64,000 nt of DNA from Lactobacillus sp. W8174 (GTDB lineage Bacteria > Bacillota > Bacilli > Lactobacillales > Lactobacillaceae): assembly GCF_016100975.1 (NCBI RefSeq), contig NZ_JACFRN010000003.1:186001-250000 (forward strand), in the 5' to 3' direction. The notes beneath the pieces are model-generated. The model was given only the letters and a program-made list of their open reading frames with translations. It ran no database searches and was not told where the DNA came from. This document shows positions 2,691-45,514 of this stretch, piece by piece; positions within the stretch are counted from its first letter, which is position 1, and each line of letters opens with the position of its first letter. The translations under genes were made by a program, and so were the position numbers.

Positions 2691-3620
2691 ATGATTAAAA
2701 ATTTAACTTTAGAACAACAAGTGGGACAGCATCATGCTTTAGGCACATCAATAACCTTACAAATCTTTGGAGCGCGCGATAAAAATGTCATTAACGACTC
2801 TTTTAATTTGATTGACCATTATGAAGATTTATTAACAGTTAATCGTGATGAATCTGAAGTTATGGATGTAAATCATGCGGCTGGTAAACAGCCAGTGCAA
2901 GTTTCCAGTGGTACCTATGATTTGATCAAATTGGCGGTAGAAAAAAGCCGGGAAAATTTTGGCTTCAATGCTTTAATTGGTCCAGTCGTTAAATTATGGG
3001 CAATTGGCTTTAAGGGGGCCCATGTTCCAACTGCTGATCAGATTAAAGAAAGGATGAAGCTAATTGATCCTTTTAGTGTTGACTTGAATGACGCTGACCA
3101 AACCGTTTTTTTGAAAAAGTCAGGAATGGAATTAGATCTGGGAGGTATTGCCAAGGGCTGGATCGCGGATCGCATTAAGGACTTTTGGTTGGCCTACGGT
3201 GTTCATGCCGGAATTATTAATCTTGGCGGCAACATTTTACTTGTTGGCGACTCACCTAAAAGGACTAGCGGTCAGTGGTCAGTAGGAGTGCAAGATCCTA
3301 AAGAGCCTCGTGGCAATAATATTGCTTCGGTAATGGTGCCAGAATGTTCAGCGGTTACTAGTGGCACTTATGAACGCTACCTGGAAGTTGACGGCCATAA
3401 ATATCATCATTTAATTGACCCACGGACTGGTTATCCAGTTGAAACAAATTTAGCTGGAGTCACTACCTTTACCAAGTATTCAGTTGAAGCAGAAATCGAA
3501 TGCAAGAGACTGTTCTTTGCAGGAAAGCCGCTTGCTGGTTGGCATGATGATCCTGATCGCATTGGAGCTGTCTTTGTATATAATGATGAACACGTTGAGT
3601 ATGACAATTTTCAAAAGTAG
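2691..3620 (+). CDS. apbE: FAD:protein FMN transferase (ApbE family)
   Basis: ApbE-family flavin transferase of 309 residues that covalently attaches FMN from FAD to Thr/Ser residues of target proteins. Family blocks visible are GTSITLQIFG at the N-terminus, ELDLGGIAKGWIADRI in the middle (FAD and Mg binding) and the C-terminal SAVTSGTYERY with HHLIDPRTGYPV. No lipobox or signal peptide is seen, which is unusual for proteobacterial ApbE but common for cytoplasmic or short forms in lactobacilli. The flavinylation target (for example a fumarate reductase-like or Rnf/Nqr-type protein) is not in this window. A terminator follows directly. Confidence 0.9.
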   Translation: MIKNLTLEQQVGQHHALGTSITLQIFGARDKNVINDSFNLIDHYEDLLTVNRDESEVMDVNHAAGKQPVQVSSGTYDLIKLAVEKSRENFGFNALIGPVVKLWAIGFKGAHVPTADQIKERMKLIDPFSVDLNDADQTVFLKKSGMELDLGGIAKGWIADRIKDFWLAYGVHAGIINLGGNILLVGDSPKRTSGQWSVGVQDPKEPRGNNIASVMVPECSAVTSGTYERYLEVDGHKYHHLIDPRTGYPVETNLAGVTTFTKYSVEAEIECKRLFFAGKPLAGWHDDPDRIGAVFVYNDEHVEYDNFQK

Positions 3621-21140: not shown

Positions 21141-21157
21141 AAAAATAGTTGAATACG

Positions 21158-21286
21158 GTTTCTTCGGGGCAGGGTGTAATTCCTTACCGACGGTGACAAT
21201 TGATAATTGAAGTCCGTGACCCGCGTTTTGCGGTGGAACTAGTGCAAGTCTAGTACCGACAGTTAAAGTCTGGATGGGAGAAGAAC
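21158..21286 (+). promoter_or_regulatory. FMN riboswitch (RFN element)
   Basis: Contains the conserved RFN blocks in order: TTCGGGGCAGGGTG, ACCGACGGTGA, AGTCCGTGACCC, GGTGGAACTAGTGC and TACCGACAGTTAAAGTC with TGGATGGGAGAAGA, closed by a P1 stem (GTTTCTT with AAGAAC). It binds FMN in the nascent transcript. An intrinsic terminator 74 bases downstream, before ribD, indicates transcriptional control of the riboflavin operon: FMN bound means termination. Confidence 0.98.
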
Positions 21287-21359
21287 AAACAAGATTAAAC
21301 AGAAAACTCGCGTCGTTATTAAACTTCGCTGAAATCTTATTTGATGAATATAAAATAAG

Positions 21360-41061: not shown

Positions 41062-41865
41062 TTATGCCAGCAAGATAGCGTCATCTTCAAGCCCCGAACC
41101 AACATGCTTTTGGAATAATTCCATCAGTTTAGGCACCGTCAAGTTTTGTTTATCTTCACCGGCTAAGTCAATTGCCACGCGACCTTGGTGCAACATGATT
41201 AAACGATTACCGTAACGAATTGCATCTTCCATGTTATGGGTAACCATAAAAGCTGTTAAATGCTGTTCAGATATTAACTTTTCAGTTAATTGCATGACTG
41301 TTATCGAGGTTTGCGGATCAAGAGCCGCAGTATGTTCATCCAGTAAAATCAAGTCTGGTCTCTGCAAAGTCGCCATTAAAAGAGTAATGGCTTGTCTTTG
41401 ACCACCGGAAAGAAGTCCAATTTCAGTTTCCAGACGATTTTCCAAATTTAAATTAAGTTGTGCTAACTGCTTTTTGAAAAATTTTCTATCTTGTTTTTTA
41501 ACGCCAGGACGAAAACCGCGTCGTTGGCCTCGTTTCATGGCTAAAGCCAAATTTTCTTCAACTGTTAATCTGACCGCTGTTCCCATTTTAGGATCTTGAA
41601 ATACACGACTAATATTTTTTGCTCTTTTAGTAACAGGCATTTTTGTAATATCGGTGCCTTTTAAAATAATCTGACCCTCTTGAATAGGCAGTGTACCAGC
41701 AATACTATTGAGCAGGGTAGACTTACCGGCACCATTACTACCAATGATAGTCACAAAATCCCCGGCTTCTAAATTAAGGTCAATACCACGTAAAACACGG
41801 TTTTCATTGACAGTTCCTTGTTCAAAAGTTTGATGCAAATTTTTAATTTTTAGTACTTCTGGCAT
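41062..41865 (-). CDS. ABC importer ATPase (TrpZ-like, aromatic amino acid candidate)
   Basis: 267 residues: Walker A GSNGAGKSTL, signature LSGGQRQA, Walker B LILLDEHTAALDP (DEHTAALDP is typical of this family) and switch His in MVTHNMEDAI. It energises the permease encoded upstream, with which it overlaps by 23 bases. Family members are annotated as tryptophan/tyrosine or general amino acid ATPases. Third gene of a lipoprotein-permease-ATPase operon under a leader-peptide attenuator. Confidence 0.9.
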   Translation of the reverse strand: MPEVLKIKNLHQTFEQGTVNENRVLRGIDLNLEAGDFVTIIGSNGAGKSTLLNSIAGTLPIQEGQIILKGTDITKMPVTKRAKNISRVFQDPKMGTAVRLTVEENLALAMKRGQRRGFRPGVKKQDRKFFKKQLAQLNLNLENRLETEIGLLSGGQRQAITLLMATLQRPDLILLDEHTAALDPQTSITVMQLTEKLISEQHLTAFMVTHNMEDAIRYGNRLIMLHQGRVAIDLAGEDKQNLTVPKLMELFQKHVGSGLEDDAILLA

Positions 41866-42760
41866 TTTGCTTTCCTCCTTTAAGATTGCGTGGTAAGTGG
41901 AAATTCGGCAAAGTTAAGCACACAACTAAAACTAAAGCTGAAGCTAATTTTGCATCAGATGGTTCTACATTCATCTGGAACACTAGGGCTAAAATCAGCC
42001 TATAAATGATGGCACCTACAACTAAAGTAAGTAAACGACCGCCAATTGGCAGATTCCTGATAAGTACTTCTGCAATAATAATTGAAGCTAATCCAATAAC
42101 CAGAGTACCAACACCAGAGTTAAGATCGGCAAAGCCGTTATTTTGTGCTAAAAGTCCACCTGACAGGGCAATGCAGCCGTTAGAAATCATATAGCCTAAA
42201 ATTTTCATTCCTTGAGTTTTGATACCATTTGCGGCACTCATTTGCGGATTGTCGCCTGTAGCTCTCATAGCTAGGCCAATTTCAGTTTTGAAAAATACGA
42301 CTAATAATAGTATAACCAAAAGTGCAATTATCAATCCCATCGCAATTACTGCATTGTTCCGACTTAATCCCCAATTTTGCGCAATTGTAAAAACTGTATC
42401 TTTGCCCAGTAATGAAACATTAGCAGCGTTTTGCATTACTCTGGAAGTAATGGAGTACAAGCCAGTCATTGTAATAATTCCTGCTAGTAAGGAAGGAATA
42501 CGCAATTTGGTGTTCAAAATACCAGTAACTAAGCCAGCAATCAAACCACCAACAAATGCGGCAATAGTTGCTAAAATAGGATTAATTCCCTTAATAATGC
42601 ACATCGTTGCAACGGCTCCCCCTAATGGAAAGCTGCCTTCAGCTGTCATGTCGGCTAGATCTAATATCCGAAAAGTTAAGTAAACACCGATTGCCATTAA
42701 TGACCAAAGTAATCCTTGAGAAGTAGATGAAAGTAATAACTCCCAAAATGTATTCAACAT
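41843..42760 (-). CDS. ABC importer permease (TrpY-like)
   Basis: 305 residues with eight or nine membrane segments; matches the BPD_transp_2 permease type (LIV/TrpY-like): LTFRILDLADMTAEGSFPLGGA near the N-terminus and NGCIALSGGLLAQNNGFADLNSGVGTLVIGLASIIIAEVL-like conserved block in the middle. It forms the membrane channel for the substrate delivered by the lipoprotein encoded just upstream. Substrate most likely an aromatic amino acid, judged from the family and the tyrosine-rich leader peptide. Confidence 0.9.
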   Translation of the reverse strand: MLNTFWELLLSSTSQGLLWSLMAIGVYLTFRILDLADMTAEGSFPLGGAVATMCIIKGINPILATIAAFVGGLIAGLVTGILNTKLRIPSLLAGIITMTGLYSITSRVMQNAANVSLLGKDTVFTIAQNWGLSRNNAVIAMGLIIALLVILLLVVFFKTEIGLAMRATGDNPQMSAANGIKTQGMKILGYMISNGCIALSGGLLAQNNGFADLNSGVGTLVIGLASIIIAEVLIRNLPIGGRLLTLVVGAIIYRLILALVFQMNVEPSDAKLASALVLVVCLTLPNFHLPRNLKGGKQNARSTKN

Positions 42761-42790: not shown

Positions 42791-43759
42791 TTACTTAGGT
42801 GCTTTAATTGAAGCAGGATCAATTCCAAGTGCCTTTGCCATTTTCTTGTTAACCACCAATTTCAAATCAGTTGCCCTTTCAACAGGCATATCTTTAGGTT
42901 TAGCTTTACCGTCTAAAATCTTAGCAGCCATTTTACCGGTTTGTTTACCAAGCGCCTCATAATCTATTCCAATAGAAGCCAAGCCTCCAGTTTTAACCTG
43001 GTCAGTTGAACCGGCTACCAGTGGGATTTTCTTTTCCTTAACAACTTTACCAATAATTGAGGAAGCAGAAGCAAATGTGTTGTCTGTTGGTACGTAAATT
43101 CCTTGTACTTTTCCAGCTAAAGTTTCAGTGACTTGCTGGACATCATTAGTAGTGTTGGCTGTCTTAATTAAAACTTTAACGCCGGCTTTTTTAAGTGCTT
43201 TGACAGCTAGATCCGCTTGAATTTTAGAATTGGCCTCACCGGCATTGTACATGATGCCAATTGTTTTAGCTTTAGGCACTATTGATAATAACAATTTTAT
43301 TTGTTTATCAATTGAAACCATGTCAGTAGTTCCGGTGACATTTCTGCCAGGTTTTGCATCTGAATTTACTAATTTAGCAGCTTTTAGATCAGTCACTGCA
43401 GTTACTACAATAGGAATATCTTGGGTTGCATTAGCTACGCTTTGCGCTGCCGGTGTAGCAATTCCTAAAATTAAATCTGATTTTTCATTAACTAGTTTTT
43501 CACTCATACTTTTCAGATTGTCTTGGCTATTTTGGGCATTTTGATAATCAATTTTTAGATTCTTGCCTTCAACGTAGCCATTTTCTTTTAAGCCTTCTTT
43601 GAAACCTTTGTTAGCCTCATCTAATGAGGGATGCTGCACCACTTGCAATATACCCACATGTTTGACAGTTGCTGTACTTCCAGATTTCTTGTTGTTGCAG
43701 CCACTAAGCAGCAACAGACTAGTTAAAGCCATTCCCATAATAATTTTCTTGATTCGCAT
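42791..43759 (-). CDS. Substrate-binding lipoprotein of ABC importer (TrpX-like), copy 1
   Basis: 322 residues starting MRIKKIIMGMALTSLLLLSGC, a lipoprotein signal with lipobox LLSGC. The mature part is of the ABC_sub_bind (TrpX) family: GILQVVQHPSLDEANKGFKEGL, LILGIATPAAQSVANAT, VTGTTDMVS, IGIMYNAGEANS, VPTDNTFASA. The ATG at 43759 has GGAGG nine bases upstream. An in-frame ATG at 43801 lies in the attenuator terminator and is not used. Family members bind tryptophan, tyrosine or similar. Paralogue of the gene at 44234-45202. Confidence 0.92.
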   Translation of the reverse strand: MRIKKIIMGMALTSLLLLSGCNNKKSGSTATVKHVGILQVVQHPSLDEANKGFKEGLKENGYVEGKNLKIDYQNAQNSQDNLKSMSEKLVNEKSDLILGIATPAAQSVANATQDIPIVVTAVTDLKAAKLVNSDAKPGRNVTGTTDMVSIDKQIKLLLSIVPKAKTIGIMYNAGEANSKIQADLAVKALKKAGVKVLIKTANTTNDVQQVTETLAGKVQGIYVPTDNTFASASSIIGKVVKEKKIPLVAGSTDQVKTGGLASIGIDYEALGKQTGKMAAKILDGKAKPKDMPVERATDLKLVVNKKMAKALGIDPASIKAPK

Positions 43760-43788
43760 TTTCGTTCCTCCGTAATCCTGCTGACCGT

Positions 43789-43819
43789 AAAAAATATCCA
43801 CTTATTTCTAAGTGGATAT
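43789..43819 (-). terminator. Attenuator terminator (segments 5:6) before copy 1 lipoprotein gene
   Basis: On the minus strand ATATCCACTTA-GAAA-TAAGTGGATAT forms a perfect 11-bp stem followed by a T run, 30 bases before the lipoprotein ATG. Its left arm can instead pair with the upstream segment TTCTAAGTGG (antiterminator). Confidence 0.9.
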
Positions 43820-43975
43820 ACAAGAATTATTAGTAATAATCATTTGTGATTAGCCACTTAGAAGCCATGTGGCTAACCGCAATTAAAGGACTTTAGCCAT
43901 CATAGATAAATTCAAAACTTGAGTCTGGTTTGAATTCATCTAGATGAACCCAAACCTTATCTAAAATAGCTAAAG
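43794..43975 (-). promoter_or_regulatory. Six-segment attenuator, copy 1
   Basis: Segments in transcript order by plus-strand position: 1 = 43957-43975 (last codons of leader peptide), 2 = 43891-43909, 3 = 43864-43878, 4 = 43848-43863, 5 = 43809-43819, 6 = 43794-43804. Possible helices: 1:2 (16 of 19 Watson-Crick plus 2 wobble), 2:3 (10 bp with one bulge), 3:4 (10 bp), 4:5 (10 bp), 5:6 (11 bp, terminator). A ribosome stalled over segment 1 would favour 2:3 and 4:5 (read-through). Free RNA favours 1:2, 3:4, 5:6 (termination). Confidence 0.75.
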
Positions 43976-44022
43976 TAATAACGGTTATTCAGTTGTGAGA
44001 CTCGTATTAGATTACATTTCAT
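43957..44022 (-). CDS. Tyr/Phe-rich leader peptide, copy 1
   Basis: A 21-codon frame begins with ATG at 44022, has GGAGGT eight bases upstream and ends in QLNNRYYFSYFR before TAA. Three Tyr and two Phe lie among the last seven residues. The second leader (45392-45457) has the same length and the same QLNNRYYxSYxR end although its N-terminal half differs. This pattern (conserved aromatic end, variable start, strong Shine-Dalgarno, overlap with attenuator segment 1) indicates a regulatory leader peptide that senses charged tRNA-Tyr or acts as an arrest peptide. Confidence 0.78.
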   Translation of the reverse strand: MKCNLIRVSQLNNRYYFSYFR

Positions 44023-44051
44023 AAAACTTTACCTCCAACCTTAATGAGAAG

Positions 44052-44080
44052 ATTATAAAAAACAAAGAAGAAAAAGTCAA
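44052..44080 (-). promoter_or_regulatory. Consensus promoter of copy 1 leader and ABC operon
   Basis: Read on the minus strand: TTGACT, 17-base spacer, TATAAT, 30 bases before the leader-peptide ATG. The same hexamers and spacer occur in copy 2. Confidence 0.88.
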
Positions 44081-44143
44081 GAAATAATAAATTTAGCTTG
44101 TAAAAATAATAATATTTATGACCACTTAAAGCAAAAGCTAAAT

Positions 44144-44219
44144 AAAAAGGTCACCTGTTTGAAATAAGCAGAAAAGCTTTTCGCTTTTGCTATTTATTTC
44201 ACTGTTCAGTGGCCTTTTT
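44144..44219 (-). terminator. Long hairpin terminator after orphan lipoprotein gene
   Basis: AAAAAGGCCAC and GTGACCTTTTT form the base of a long imperfect hairpin whose tip contains GCGAAAAGC (minus strand), 14 bases after the copy 2 stop. It separates the orphan gene from the copy 1 promoter. Confidence 0.8.
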
Positions 44220-44233
44220 ATACCAACTTAAAA

Positions 44234-45202
44234 TTATTTAGGTGCTTTGATTGATTTAGGATCAATTCCCAGTGCTTTTGCCATGCTCTTATTAACAACT
44301 AATTTCATATCATGTGCTCTTTCAACCGGCATGTTAGCTGGCTTAGCTTTTCCAGATAAGATTTTTGCAGCCATTTTGCCAGTTTGTTCTCCTAATAGTT
44401 CGTAATCAATTCCGATTGAGGCCAAACCACCTGTTCTAACTTGATCAACGGAACTTGCTACCAGGGGAACTTTCTTTTCTTTGACTACTTTTCCAACTAC
44501 AGAAGCAGCTGAATCGAAAGTATTATCGGTAGGAACGAAAATACCGTCAACTTTAGACGCAAGCGTTTCAGTTACTTGCTGGACATCGTTAGTCGTATTT
44601 GCCGTTTTAATTAAAACTTTCACTCCTGCTTTTTTCAGTGCAGCTGTAGCTAAATCGGCCTGTATTTTAGAGTTCGATTCACCAGCGTTGTACATGATAC
44701 CGATAGTTTTAGCTTTCGGAACAATTGACAGGAGCAGTTTGATCTGGCGTTTAATTGAAACCATATCTGTTGTTCCCGTAATGTTTCTGCCAGGTTTAGC
44801 ATCTGAATCAACTAACTTAGCCGCTTTCAAGTCAGTTACAGCAGTAACAACAGTTGGTATTTTTTGGGTCGCATTAGCAACGCTCTGTGCAGCCGGAGTG
44901 GCAATGCCCAAAATCAAATCTGATTTTTCATTAACCAGTTTTTCACTCATACTTTTCAGATTGTCTTGATTGTTTTGCGCATTCTGGTAGTCAATTTTAA
45001 GATTTTTACCCTCAACAAAACCACTTTCTTTTAGTCCCTTTTTAAAGCCTTTGTACGCCTTATCTAAAGAAGGGTGCTGCACTACTTGTAAGACACCAAC
45101 ATGTTTAACCTCAGGCGCCTTGCCAGCTTTTTTGCTGCTGCAGCCTCCCAATGCCATTAATCCGACAATACTAATTCCTGTGATCAATTTCTTAAAATGC
45201 AT
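44234..45202 (-). CDS. Orphan substrate-binding lipoprotein (TrpX-like), copy 2
   Basis: 322 residues starting MHFKKLITGISIVGLMALGGC, a lipoprotein signal with lipobox ALGGC. The mature sequence is highly similar to copy 1 throughout (LQVVQHPSLDKAYKGFKKGL, ILGIATPAAQSVANATQ, NITGTTDMVSIKRQIKLLL, VPTDNTFDSAASV). It has no permease or ATPase of its own and a terminator closes the transcript, so it probably feeds the importer encoded downstream. GGAGG lies seven bases before the ATG. A gene duplication that included the leader explains the arrangement. Confidence 0.92.
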   Translation of the reverse strand: MHFKKLITGISIVGLMALGGCSSKKAGKAPEVKHVGVLQVVQHPSLDKAYKGFKKGLKESGFVEGKNLKIDYQNAQNNQDNLKSMSEKLVNEKSDLILGIATPAAQSVANATQKIPTVVTAVTDLKAAKLVDSDAKPGRNITGTTDMVSIKRQIKLLLSIVPKAKTIGIMYNAGESNSKIQADLATAALKKAGVKVLIKTANTTNDVQQVTETLASKVDGIFVPTDNTFDSAASVVGKVVKEKKVPLVASSVDQVRTGGLASIGIDYELLGEQTGKMAAKILSGKAKPANMPVERAHDMKLVVNKSMAKALGIDPKSIKAPK

Positions 45203-45216
45203 TTTTCTGCCTCCAT

Positions 45217-45246
45217 AAAAAATACCCACTTACTTCTAAGCGGGTA
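45217..45246 (-). terminator. Attenuator terminator (segments 5:6) before copy 2 lipoprotein gene
   Basis: On the minus strand TACCCGCTTA-GAAG-TAAGTGGGTA (one G-T pair) followed by six T, directly before the GGAGG of the gene. Confidence 0.9.
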
Positions 45247-45410
45247 CACAAAAATTTTCATTGCCAAAAACGATTGAATGTGGTCAGCCACTTAGAAAGC
45301 TATGTGGCTAACCAAACTAAAAGAGCCTTAGCCATCATAGATAAATTCAAACTTGTGTTTAGTTTGAATTCACCTAGATGAACCCAAACTCTTATCTATA
45401 GTAGCTAAGA
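45223..45410 (-). promoter_or_regulatory. Six-segment attenuator, copy 2
   Basis: Segments by plus-strand position: 1 = 45392-45410, 2 = 45327-45344, 3 = 45299-45313, 4 = 45282-45298, 5 = 45237-45246, 6 = 45223-45232. Helices 1:2 (15 of 18 plus 2 wobble), 2:3 (12 bp, one bulged A), 3:4 (10 bp, one wobble), 4:5 (10 bp, one wobble), 5:6 (terminator). All five alternatives of copy 1 are preserved despite base changes in the arms, including paired changes in the terminator (ATATCC/GGATAT versus TACCC/GGGTA). Confidence 0.77.
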
Positions 45411-45457
45411 TAATAACGATTATTCAGTTGATTTTCTTTTTGACTAAACTCAATCAT
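45392..45457 (-). CDS. Tyr-rich leader peptide, copy 2
   Basis: 21 codons from ATG at 45457, with GGAGGT seven bases upstream, ending QLNNRYYLSYYR before TAA. Four of the last seven residues are Tyr, using both TAT and TAC. Compared with copy 1 the two Phe become Leu and Tyr, which favours Tyr rather than Phe as the sensed residue. The stop codon lies inside attenuator segment 1. Confidence 0.78.
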   Translation of the reverse strand: MIEFSQKENQLNNRYYLSYYR

Positions 45458-45485: not shown

Positions 45486-45514
45486 ATTATAAAAAAATAA
45501 GAAATTAAAGTCAA
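45486..45514 (-). promoter_or_regulatory. Consensus promoter of copy 2 leader and orphan lipoprotein gene
   Basis: Minus strand: TTGACT, 17-base spacer, TATAAT, 29 bases before the leader-peptide ATG. Confidence 0.88.

Follow-up and report, generated by a model that had tools for sequence, protein, structure and literature searches.

The window considered here is a stretch of 64,000 nucleotides from Lactobacillus sp. W8174, and all positions below count from its first letter. Its minus strand carries an ABC importer operon preceded by a short leader with its own promoter (leader 1), and a second full attenuator copy (leader 2), absent from an earlier sequence-only reading of this DNA, occupies 45514-45222 (-) and precedes a paralogous lipoprotein gene. 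The features of the two leaders and of the genes behind them are as follows.

44080-44052, minus strand: promoter of leader 1, sigma-70-type, TTGACT-17-TATAAT, 11/12 matches
44036-44032, minus strand: GGAGG ribosome-binding site of leader 1
43957-44022, minus strand: leader 1 peptide frame, MKCNLIRVSQLNNRYYFSYFR and then TAA, 21 codons, ATG at 44022, stop at 43959-43957, aligned in 25 Lactobacillus leaders
43957-43976, minus strand: segment 1, formed by the last codons of the frame (F S Y F R stop), partner of segment 2
43927-43956, minus strand: inner hairpin between segments 1 and 2, 13 pairs, -13.9 kcal/mol
43890-43908, minus strand: segment 2, partner of 1 or 3
43865-43878, minus strand: segment 3, partner of 2 or 4
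43848-43863, minus strand: segment 4, partner of 3 or 5
43806-43819, minus strand: segment 5, terminator 5' arm running into the loop, partner of 4 or 6
43794-43804, minus strand: segment 6, terminator 3' arm with a U run behind it
42791-43759, minus strand: substrate-binding lipoprotein, ABC_sub_bind (PF04392), ATG at 43759, 337 bits with NCBIfam ABC_SBP_TrpX
41843-42760, minus strand: ABC permease (BPD_transp_2), the next gene on the same strand
41062-41865, minus strand: ABC ATPase, the next gene on the same strand
45486-45514, minus strand: promoter of leader 2, TTGACT-17-TATAAT, read by eye
45392-45457, minus strand: leader 2 peptide, MIEFSQKENQLNNRYYLSYYR
45240-45408, minus strand: attenuator copy 2, 52 bits with Rfam RF02863 (below its gathering score) and 70 bits with our model R1 (see below)
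45222-45247, minus strand: terminator hairpin of leader 2
44234-45202, minus strand: paralogous substrate-binding lipoprotein gene, 331 bits with NCBIfam ABC_SBP_TrpX

A long inverted repeat with A and T runs was seen by eye 3' of the second lipoprotein gene, at about 44217-44143; it is perhaps the terminator of that gene, in which case the two leaders would drive separate transcripts. The window also holds an FMN riboswitch (RF00050, 106.7 bits) at 21156-21289 on the plus strand.

The promoter, the 21-codon frame with its Shine-Dalgarno site, the six pairing segments and the terminator before the lipoprotein gene, all described in the sequence-only reading, were each located on the minus strand. 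The terminator 5:6 consists of 11 pairs and a U run (43819-43794), 2:3 of 12 pairs with one bulged A, and 3:4 and 4:5 of 10 pairs each, and the helices fall into two alternatives, a 1:2/3:4/5:6 set and a 2:3/4:5 set. The whole fold of leader 1 has a z score of -7.39, with none of 200 shuffles equally good, and its five successive helices were all matched in strength by none of 2000 dinucleotide shuffles; the places compared in the latter test were taken from the window's own structure, a bias that favours the window. A chance origin of the fold and its helices is rejected on these values.

The Rfam family RF02863 (sRNA_2410, "Enterococcus sRNA 2410") matches 43781-43973 (-) with 68.8 bits against a gathering score of 61, and the match begins with the last codons of the leader. 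Across Lactobacillales the family matches 163/295 genomes at E<=0.01, in 51 of 74 genera, and exceeds its gathering score in 72 of the 295; among the genomes listed in this order-wide search, 3 of 14 of the genus Lactobacillus are represented. The statement of the sequence-only reading that leader-peptide attenuation is rare in Lactobacillales does not stand against a family present in 163 of 295 genomes. A pattern derived from the leader found 60 stretches in named genomes, belonging to Enterococcus, Tetragenococcus, Vagococcus, Lactobacillus and one metagenome-assembled "Lactobacillales bacterium". The Lactobacillus species among them are huangpiensis, bombicola, kimbladii, helsingborgensis, melliventris, laiwuensis, kullabergensis and apis, which are bee-gut species; that the window belongs to this group as well is a probable inference. 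We read 132 loci, namely the 32 returned first, the next 80 by score and 20 chosen for spread. Their first downstream gene encodes a TrpX-type lipoprotein in 80, AroE in 45, AroF in 4, and PheA, a TrpY-type permease and a family-3 solute-binding protein in one each, the last (L114) being the sole locus without an assigned aromatic gene; one aroE locus, traced further, has the order aroE-aroF-aroB.

Both pairing sets are conserved. In the 25 Lactobacillus leaders the terminating set (1:2, the inner hairpin, 3:4 and 5:6) has 96.7% of cells paired and covaries at 11 pairs, with 44 cells changed on both sides, which none of 500 shuffles reached; the number of its further pair types was unremarkable (71 of 500 shuffles). 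The read-through set (2:3 and 4:5) has 98.0% of cells paired and covaries at 2 pairs, with 3 cells changed on both sides, values reached by 26 and 2 of 500 shuffles, so that within Lactobacillus its support rests more on conservation than on covariation. In the copy of Lactobacillus kimbladii (L150:1180-1499) the inner hairpin is missing and segments 1 to 6 are retained.

Order-wide, the helices could be compared at 104 loci, that is 130 less 5 without a terminator, 14 with a weak or misplaced one and 7 duplicates. Helix 4:5 has a mean energy of -14.6 kcal/mol against -7.3 in shuffles and exceeds every one of 40 shuffles at 80 of the 104. For 1:2, 2:3 and 3:4, the number of loci above all 30 shuffles is 94, 49 and 70, and the number within the best 10% is 104, 96 and 102, respectively. 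With segment 5 swapped in from other genera the mean of 4:5 weakens to -10.3, and on average 14% of the swaps equal the locus's own segment, which is the best in only 17/104 loci; this test is weak because the segments are alike across genera. Among the outcomes that the sequence-only reading had named as able to refute it was a lack of conservation of the frame or its alternative helices in relatives; both are kept in the 25 Lactobacillus leaders and across the order.

The leader is open in 131/132 loci and ends in or near QLNNxYFSYFR; a script detected the motif [SGH][YFV][FYL]R close to where the match begins in 130, and L076 was added by eye. At L127, before aroF, a stop lies within the leader frame (about 3400-3500, oriented) and the downstream scaffold is still RF02863-positive. 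Gaps within the frame of the 25 distinct Lactobacillus leaders aligned are of 6 or 9 nt, and single-base gaps were noted only outside it. Tyr and Phe together make up 25% of the residues of 130 leaders. No Trp codon occurs in the 130 Lactobacillales leaders tallied, which rules out tryptophan as the signal for them. Tyrosine starvation had earlier been inferred as the inducer from the sequence alone; sensing of tyrosine alone is not shown by the leader codons, because Tyr and Phe codons are mixed and because two of the 130 leaders (L061 and L122), like that of the genus relative L226, have no Tyr at all.

Codon usage differs along the frame. With the conserved Ser as position 0, codons whose bases pair with segment 2 show almost no silent variation (AGC for 127 of 128 Ser, TTT for 124 of 124 Phe at -1), and Leu at -6 is encoded in four ways (CTG 56, TTG 22, TTA 8, CTA 5). 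Upstream of the paired codons, 87, 91 and 106 of 130 leaders retain Gln at -7, Leu at -6 and Asn at -5, respectively, a conservation which codon sensing does not need and which it leaves unexplained on its own. The same residues, with a Leu kept through four codons, are what could be expected if the QLNN..FSYFR peptide, in the manner of TnaC, arrested the ribosome on a small molecule and the RNA switch read that stall. We nevertheless consider such nascent-chain arrest unlikely, given that QLN occurs in only 2/17 leaders of family f5, 0/7 of family f4 and 9/26 aroF leaders outside the order, where the aromatic codons are retained, and that the genes controlled serve uptake or synthesis, so that shortage should be the inducer.

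The Rfam name implies a different function, that of a trans-acting small RNA of about 200 nt whose position before the importer would be incidental. Rfam types RF02863 as sRNA, and the accessible part of the E. faecium study describes Putative_sRNA_2410 of strain Aus0004 as a 195 nt RNA with two transcripts on a Northern blot and a rise with daptomycin of 2.3-fold by RNA-seq and 4.1-fold by qPCR (PMC5593968); the strings "attenuat" and "leader" do not occur in the main text of that paper. That RF02863 was built from this RNA is inferred from its name and length. The gene next on the same strand, however, serves aromatic import or synthesis in 131/132 loci, the first possible start lying a median of 44 bases past the RF02863 match (range -37 to 215), and both the leader frame and the alternative pairings are conserved. 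A terminated leader would be expected to give such a band as well, and we infer that the E. faecium Northern RNA is one. A side role in trans is not excluded, but an independent small RNA as the primary function seems very unlikely to us. A riboswitch or T-box, with a ligand or protein bound by the leader and the short frame not acting as sensor, is hardly tenable despite the strong conserved structure and the 15 T-box matches in the genome (5 above the gathering score), since the T-box model RF00230 has no covariance-model match in 43600-44300 at E<=1, which rejects a T-box for leader 1, the inner hairpin as the main helix outside the segment chain is the one missing in L. kimbladii, and the gaps of 6 or 9 nt keep the frame. 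The T-boxes of the genome stand before other genes, for example pheS (101.5 bits) and tyrS (59.2 bits, below the gathering score of 93).

We read the element as a cis-acting, ribosome-mediated transcription attenuator of six-segment (his-operon) topology that senses shortage of Tyr and Phe, and hold this to be very probable. The earlier proposal of a ribosome-mediated attenuator before an aromatic-type ABC importer is supported by the conserved frame, the pairings and the gene context; these, together with their conservation and the pocket type discussed below, were established by computation. The start site, translation of the leader, the step from stalling to read-through and limitation of Tyr or Phe as signal are inferred, without starvation data behind them. 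Transcription would start a few bases past 44052, and a ribosome would enter the 21-codon leader. With charged tRNA-Tyr and tRNA-Phe plentiful, it would finish the frame and leave, upon which 1:2, then 3:4 and then 5:6 would form and transcription would end before the importer gene. With Tyr or Phe short, it would wait at the Y-Y-F codons and cover segment 1; 2:3 and 4:5 would then form, the terminator would come too late, and the importer would be made. Throughout Lactobacillales the same device would govern both the uptake of Tyr/Phe and the synthesis of aromatic compounds, and related copies outside the order have a Phe or Trp codon where Tyr stands here.

Folding the leader with and without segment 1 masked, as had been suggested with the sequence-only reading, did not make the switch visible at equilibrium, as the full leader with segment 1 masked still forms the terminator. 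Equilibrium folding is accordingly discarded as proof, and the switch must be kinetic. We modelled partial transcripts with a ribosome placed on the frame. When the inner hairpin is forced and the ribosome stands on leader 1 at Tyr-3, Tyr-2, Phe-1 or Ser-0, helix 2:3 reaches 0.92-0.98 before segment 4 emerges, and 2:3 together with 4:5 reaches 0.5-0.77 just before segment 6 emerges; 3:4 is favoured at the lengths in between, so 2:3 would have to persist kinetically. With the ribosome stalled and the hairpin not forced, 2:3 is 0.83 and then 0.67 at the first lengths, and 4:5 does not follow. With the ribosome at Phe+2, 2:3 is 0.39-0.52; with it at Arg or the stop, unforced, 2:3 does not exceed 0.03 and the inner hairpin is open; and without a ribosome, 4:5 briefly reaches 0.8 at lengths 262-266. 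The hairpin was imposed at ribosome places -3 to 0 but left free at the later ones, so the two groups of rows are not like for like.

With nothing forced, the 104 loci have on average 2.8 expected 2:3 pairs before segment 4 without a ribosome, 9.7 with the ribosome stalled at -2 and 4.8 with it at the stop, and at least 5 such pairs are expected in 19, 80 and 52 of them, respectively. The stalled ribosome gives an excess of at least 3 pairs over the stop in 60/104 loci, and the reverse holds in 3, including leader 2 of the window (L002), for which 0.0 pairs are modelled when stalled at -2 and 8.3 with the ribosome at the stop. In this model the second copy, unlike copy 1, does not follow the stalling scheme. 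That the inner hairpin acts as a gate, telling a starved ribosome apart from one that has reached the stop, remains a suggestion of the modelling only.

What the importer carries can be approached through its lipoprotein. Both window proteins fall short of the curated cut-off of NCBIfam ABC_SBP_TrpX (NF041285), with 337 and 331 bits against 390. The best-scoring solved structure is the tyrosine binder CD0873 of C. difficile (6HNI, 274 bits), and the Trp binder SP1069 (3LFT) scores lower, at 209 bits. According to the part of the structural work available, Tyr-279 of CD0873 corresponds to Gln-284 of SP1069, and Glu-263 of CD0873 holds the hydroxyl of the bound Tyr (PMC6816091). We mapped these places ourselves onto 82 leader-bearing rows, made up of 80 loci and a second count of the two window proteins. 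The Gln-284 place is Tyr in 81, including both window proteins, Phe in 1 and Gln in none; it is Tyr in 24/24 close members of the genus, and among 6 distant leaderless rows of the genus it is Gln in 5 and Tyr in 1. At the Glu-263 place, Ser stands in 71/82 and Glu in 2/82 leader-bearing rows, which leaves Tyr versus Phe as substrate undecided. Judged by these residues the pocket is of the Tyr/Phe type and not of the Trp type, and tyrosine or PHENYLALANINE, not tryptophan, is the expected substrate, with no binding data for either statement. The TrpX label as a guide to substrate is weakened by the scores below cut-off, by CD0873 as best match and by the absence of the Trp-type Gln.

A homologue of the lipoprotein occurs in 68/75 genomes of the genus at E<=1e-40. 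In a census of 30 such loci the leader precedes 24/24 close homologues (L208-L231, one of them the window itself) and 0/6 distant ones; the pattern recovered 21 of the 24, and L218, L220 and L226 were added. The leader at L226, SFFSFFR, has Phe and no Tyr, and the lipoprotein gene behind it has one internal stop codon. At L232 a match to the trpB ncRNA motif (RF04312, 52.7 bits, below the gathering score of 59) lies at 1280-1377, 5' of a distant TrpX-type gene that has no leader. Neither PF00793 (DAHP synthase, type I; present in 11 of 14 controls) nor PF00800 (prephenate dehydratase; present in 14 of 14 controls) has a match in the host genome, so import should matter; the host should need external Phe and Tyr, with the reservation that other types of DAHP synthase were not sought.

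The scaffold is not confined to the order. Model R1, which covers the leader end and helix 1:2 and was built from 88 sequences, matches 35/398 genomes of the class (E<=0.001), including 5 from other orders, and 4/398 genomes of the phylum, including one from another class. In the families of three such genomes it matches 30/33, 14/26 (14/15 in one genus) and 9/39 at E<=0.01. Helix 4:5 was tested at 67 loci outside the order (78 less 2 without a terminator and 9 duplicates or too short); at 39 of them it exceeds every one of 40 shuffles, and at 56 it ranks within the best 10%. Further downstream genes outside the order encode transketolase, an MFS transporter, an aminotransferase and permeases. 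Several copies outside the class apparently end after 3:4, in a trp-like four-segment form, as judged by eye. The copies outside the class at L276, L326-L332, L334 and L335 precede symporters and TrpY-type permeases, and some of these copies seem to have the four-segment layout. Leaders with YYFGWF or close variants stand before transketolase, an enzyme that would provide the aromatic pathway with erythrose-4-phosphate, at L306-L312, L322 and L323 (at L307 and L309 the first long frame is elsewhere or cut short).

The residue two before the conserved Ser changes with the gene downstream. It is Tyr at 33/34 aroF loci, the exception being the broken frame of L127, and Phe at 16/17 pheA loci, the one Tyr belonging to L085, the only pheA locus inside the order. 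At the sodium:neurotransmitter-type symporter loci of one family it is Trp in 4/4; the leaders concerned (NIWYSYR; L243, L348, L350 and L351) are built on the same scaffold. In the family outside the class, Tyr predominates at this position in the leaders before symporters. The Phe codons before pheA alternate between TTT and TTC. A script had tallied 28 Y, 1 N and 1 uncalled for aroF and 12 F, 1 Y and 1 N for pheA; for the totals the N rows L288 and L343 were re-read by eye, and L238-L240 and L303 (aroF), L244, L245 and L342 (pheA) and L243 (symporter) were added. The gene classes rest on Pfam for examples only, and as the rows are related there may have been only one swap to Phe and one to Trp. 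We put forward, as a possibility short of an even case, that one homologous scaffold has spread through Bacilli and another class as an aromatic attenuator in which the sense codon is swapped to suit the gene (Tyr for aroF, aroE and importers, Phe for pheA, Trp for the symporter), much as specifiers are swapped in T-boxes, with the inner hairpin gating the starved against the stop-codon ribosome.

In the open-licence literature searched, RF02863 or sRNA_2410 is named nowhere but in PMC5593968, no mention of the leader peptide strings was found, and further topic searches of titles and abstract starts returned nothing on the family; term look-up in the accessible parts of PMC3166299, PMC11109978 and PMC2494555 likewise found nothing on it. 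What Rfam holds as a small RNA would be an order-wide leader-peptide attenuator. An aromatic regulon was reportedly treated by Panina et al. in 2003. If our reading is true, the RNA seen on the E. faecium Northern blot gains a likely origin, signal and set of target genes, the expected substrate of many TrpX-type proteins changes, and a set of related leaders on one scaffold, differing at a single codon (Tyr, Phe or Trp), lends itself to testing how the codon determines specificity.

Leader-peptide attenuation is a textbook mechanism in enterobacteria, and the attenuator of their his operon has the six-segment topology. The element described here resembles it in its leader peptide, six segments, two exclusive pairing sets and a last hairpin that is the terminator, and by this analogy, with no kinship implied, it may work in the same way. 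It differs in having Tyr and Phe codons rather than His codons, in belonging to a different phylum, in preceding import and aromatic-synthesis genes, and in serving several operons with one scaffold. RF02863 is the same RNA family as the window copies (68.8 and 52 bits), which Rfam and the accessible part of the E. faecium study treat as a small RNA (PMC5593968). The T-box of Streptococcus suis trpXYZ also brings about transcription attenuation before a TrpX-type importer operon in response to an aromatic amino acid but reads uncharged tRNA-Trp directly (PMC9382623), whereas the window has a Tyr/Phe frame and a lipoprotein without the Trp-type glutamine. A predicted upstream frame with Phe beside a terminator, uORFC-13-1, precedes aroF in Acholeplasma; its 24 representatives come from Acholeplasma and environmental sequences only, according to the part of the source consulted (PMC8632094). 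The histidine leader peptides of hisS and hisZ in bacilli are a further case of leader-peptide attenuation in Firmicutes, with His codons and other genes, and the accessible part of that 2010 survey states that, erm-type leaders aside, none had been known outside Proteobacteria and Actinobacteria before its own hisS cases (PMC2965389). The mechanism is known, and what is new, as far as the literature searched shows, is the family, its spread under the label of a small RNA and the exchange of codons on one scaffold.
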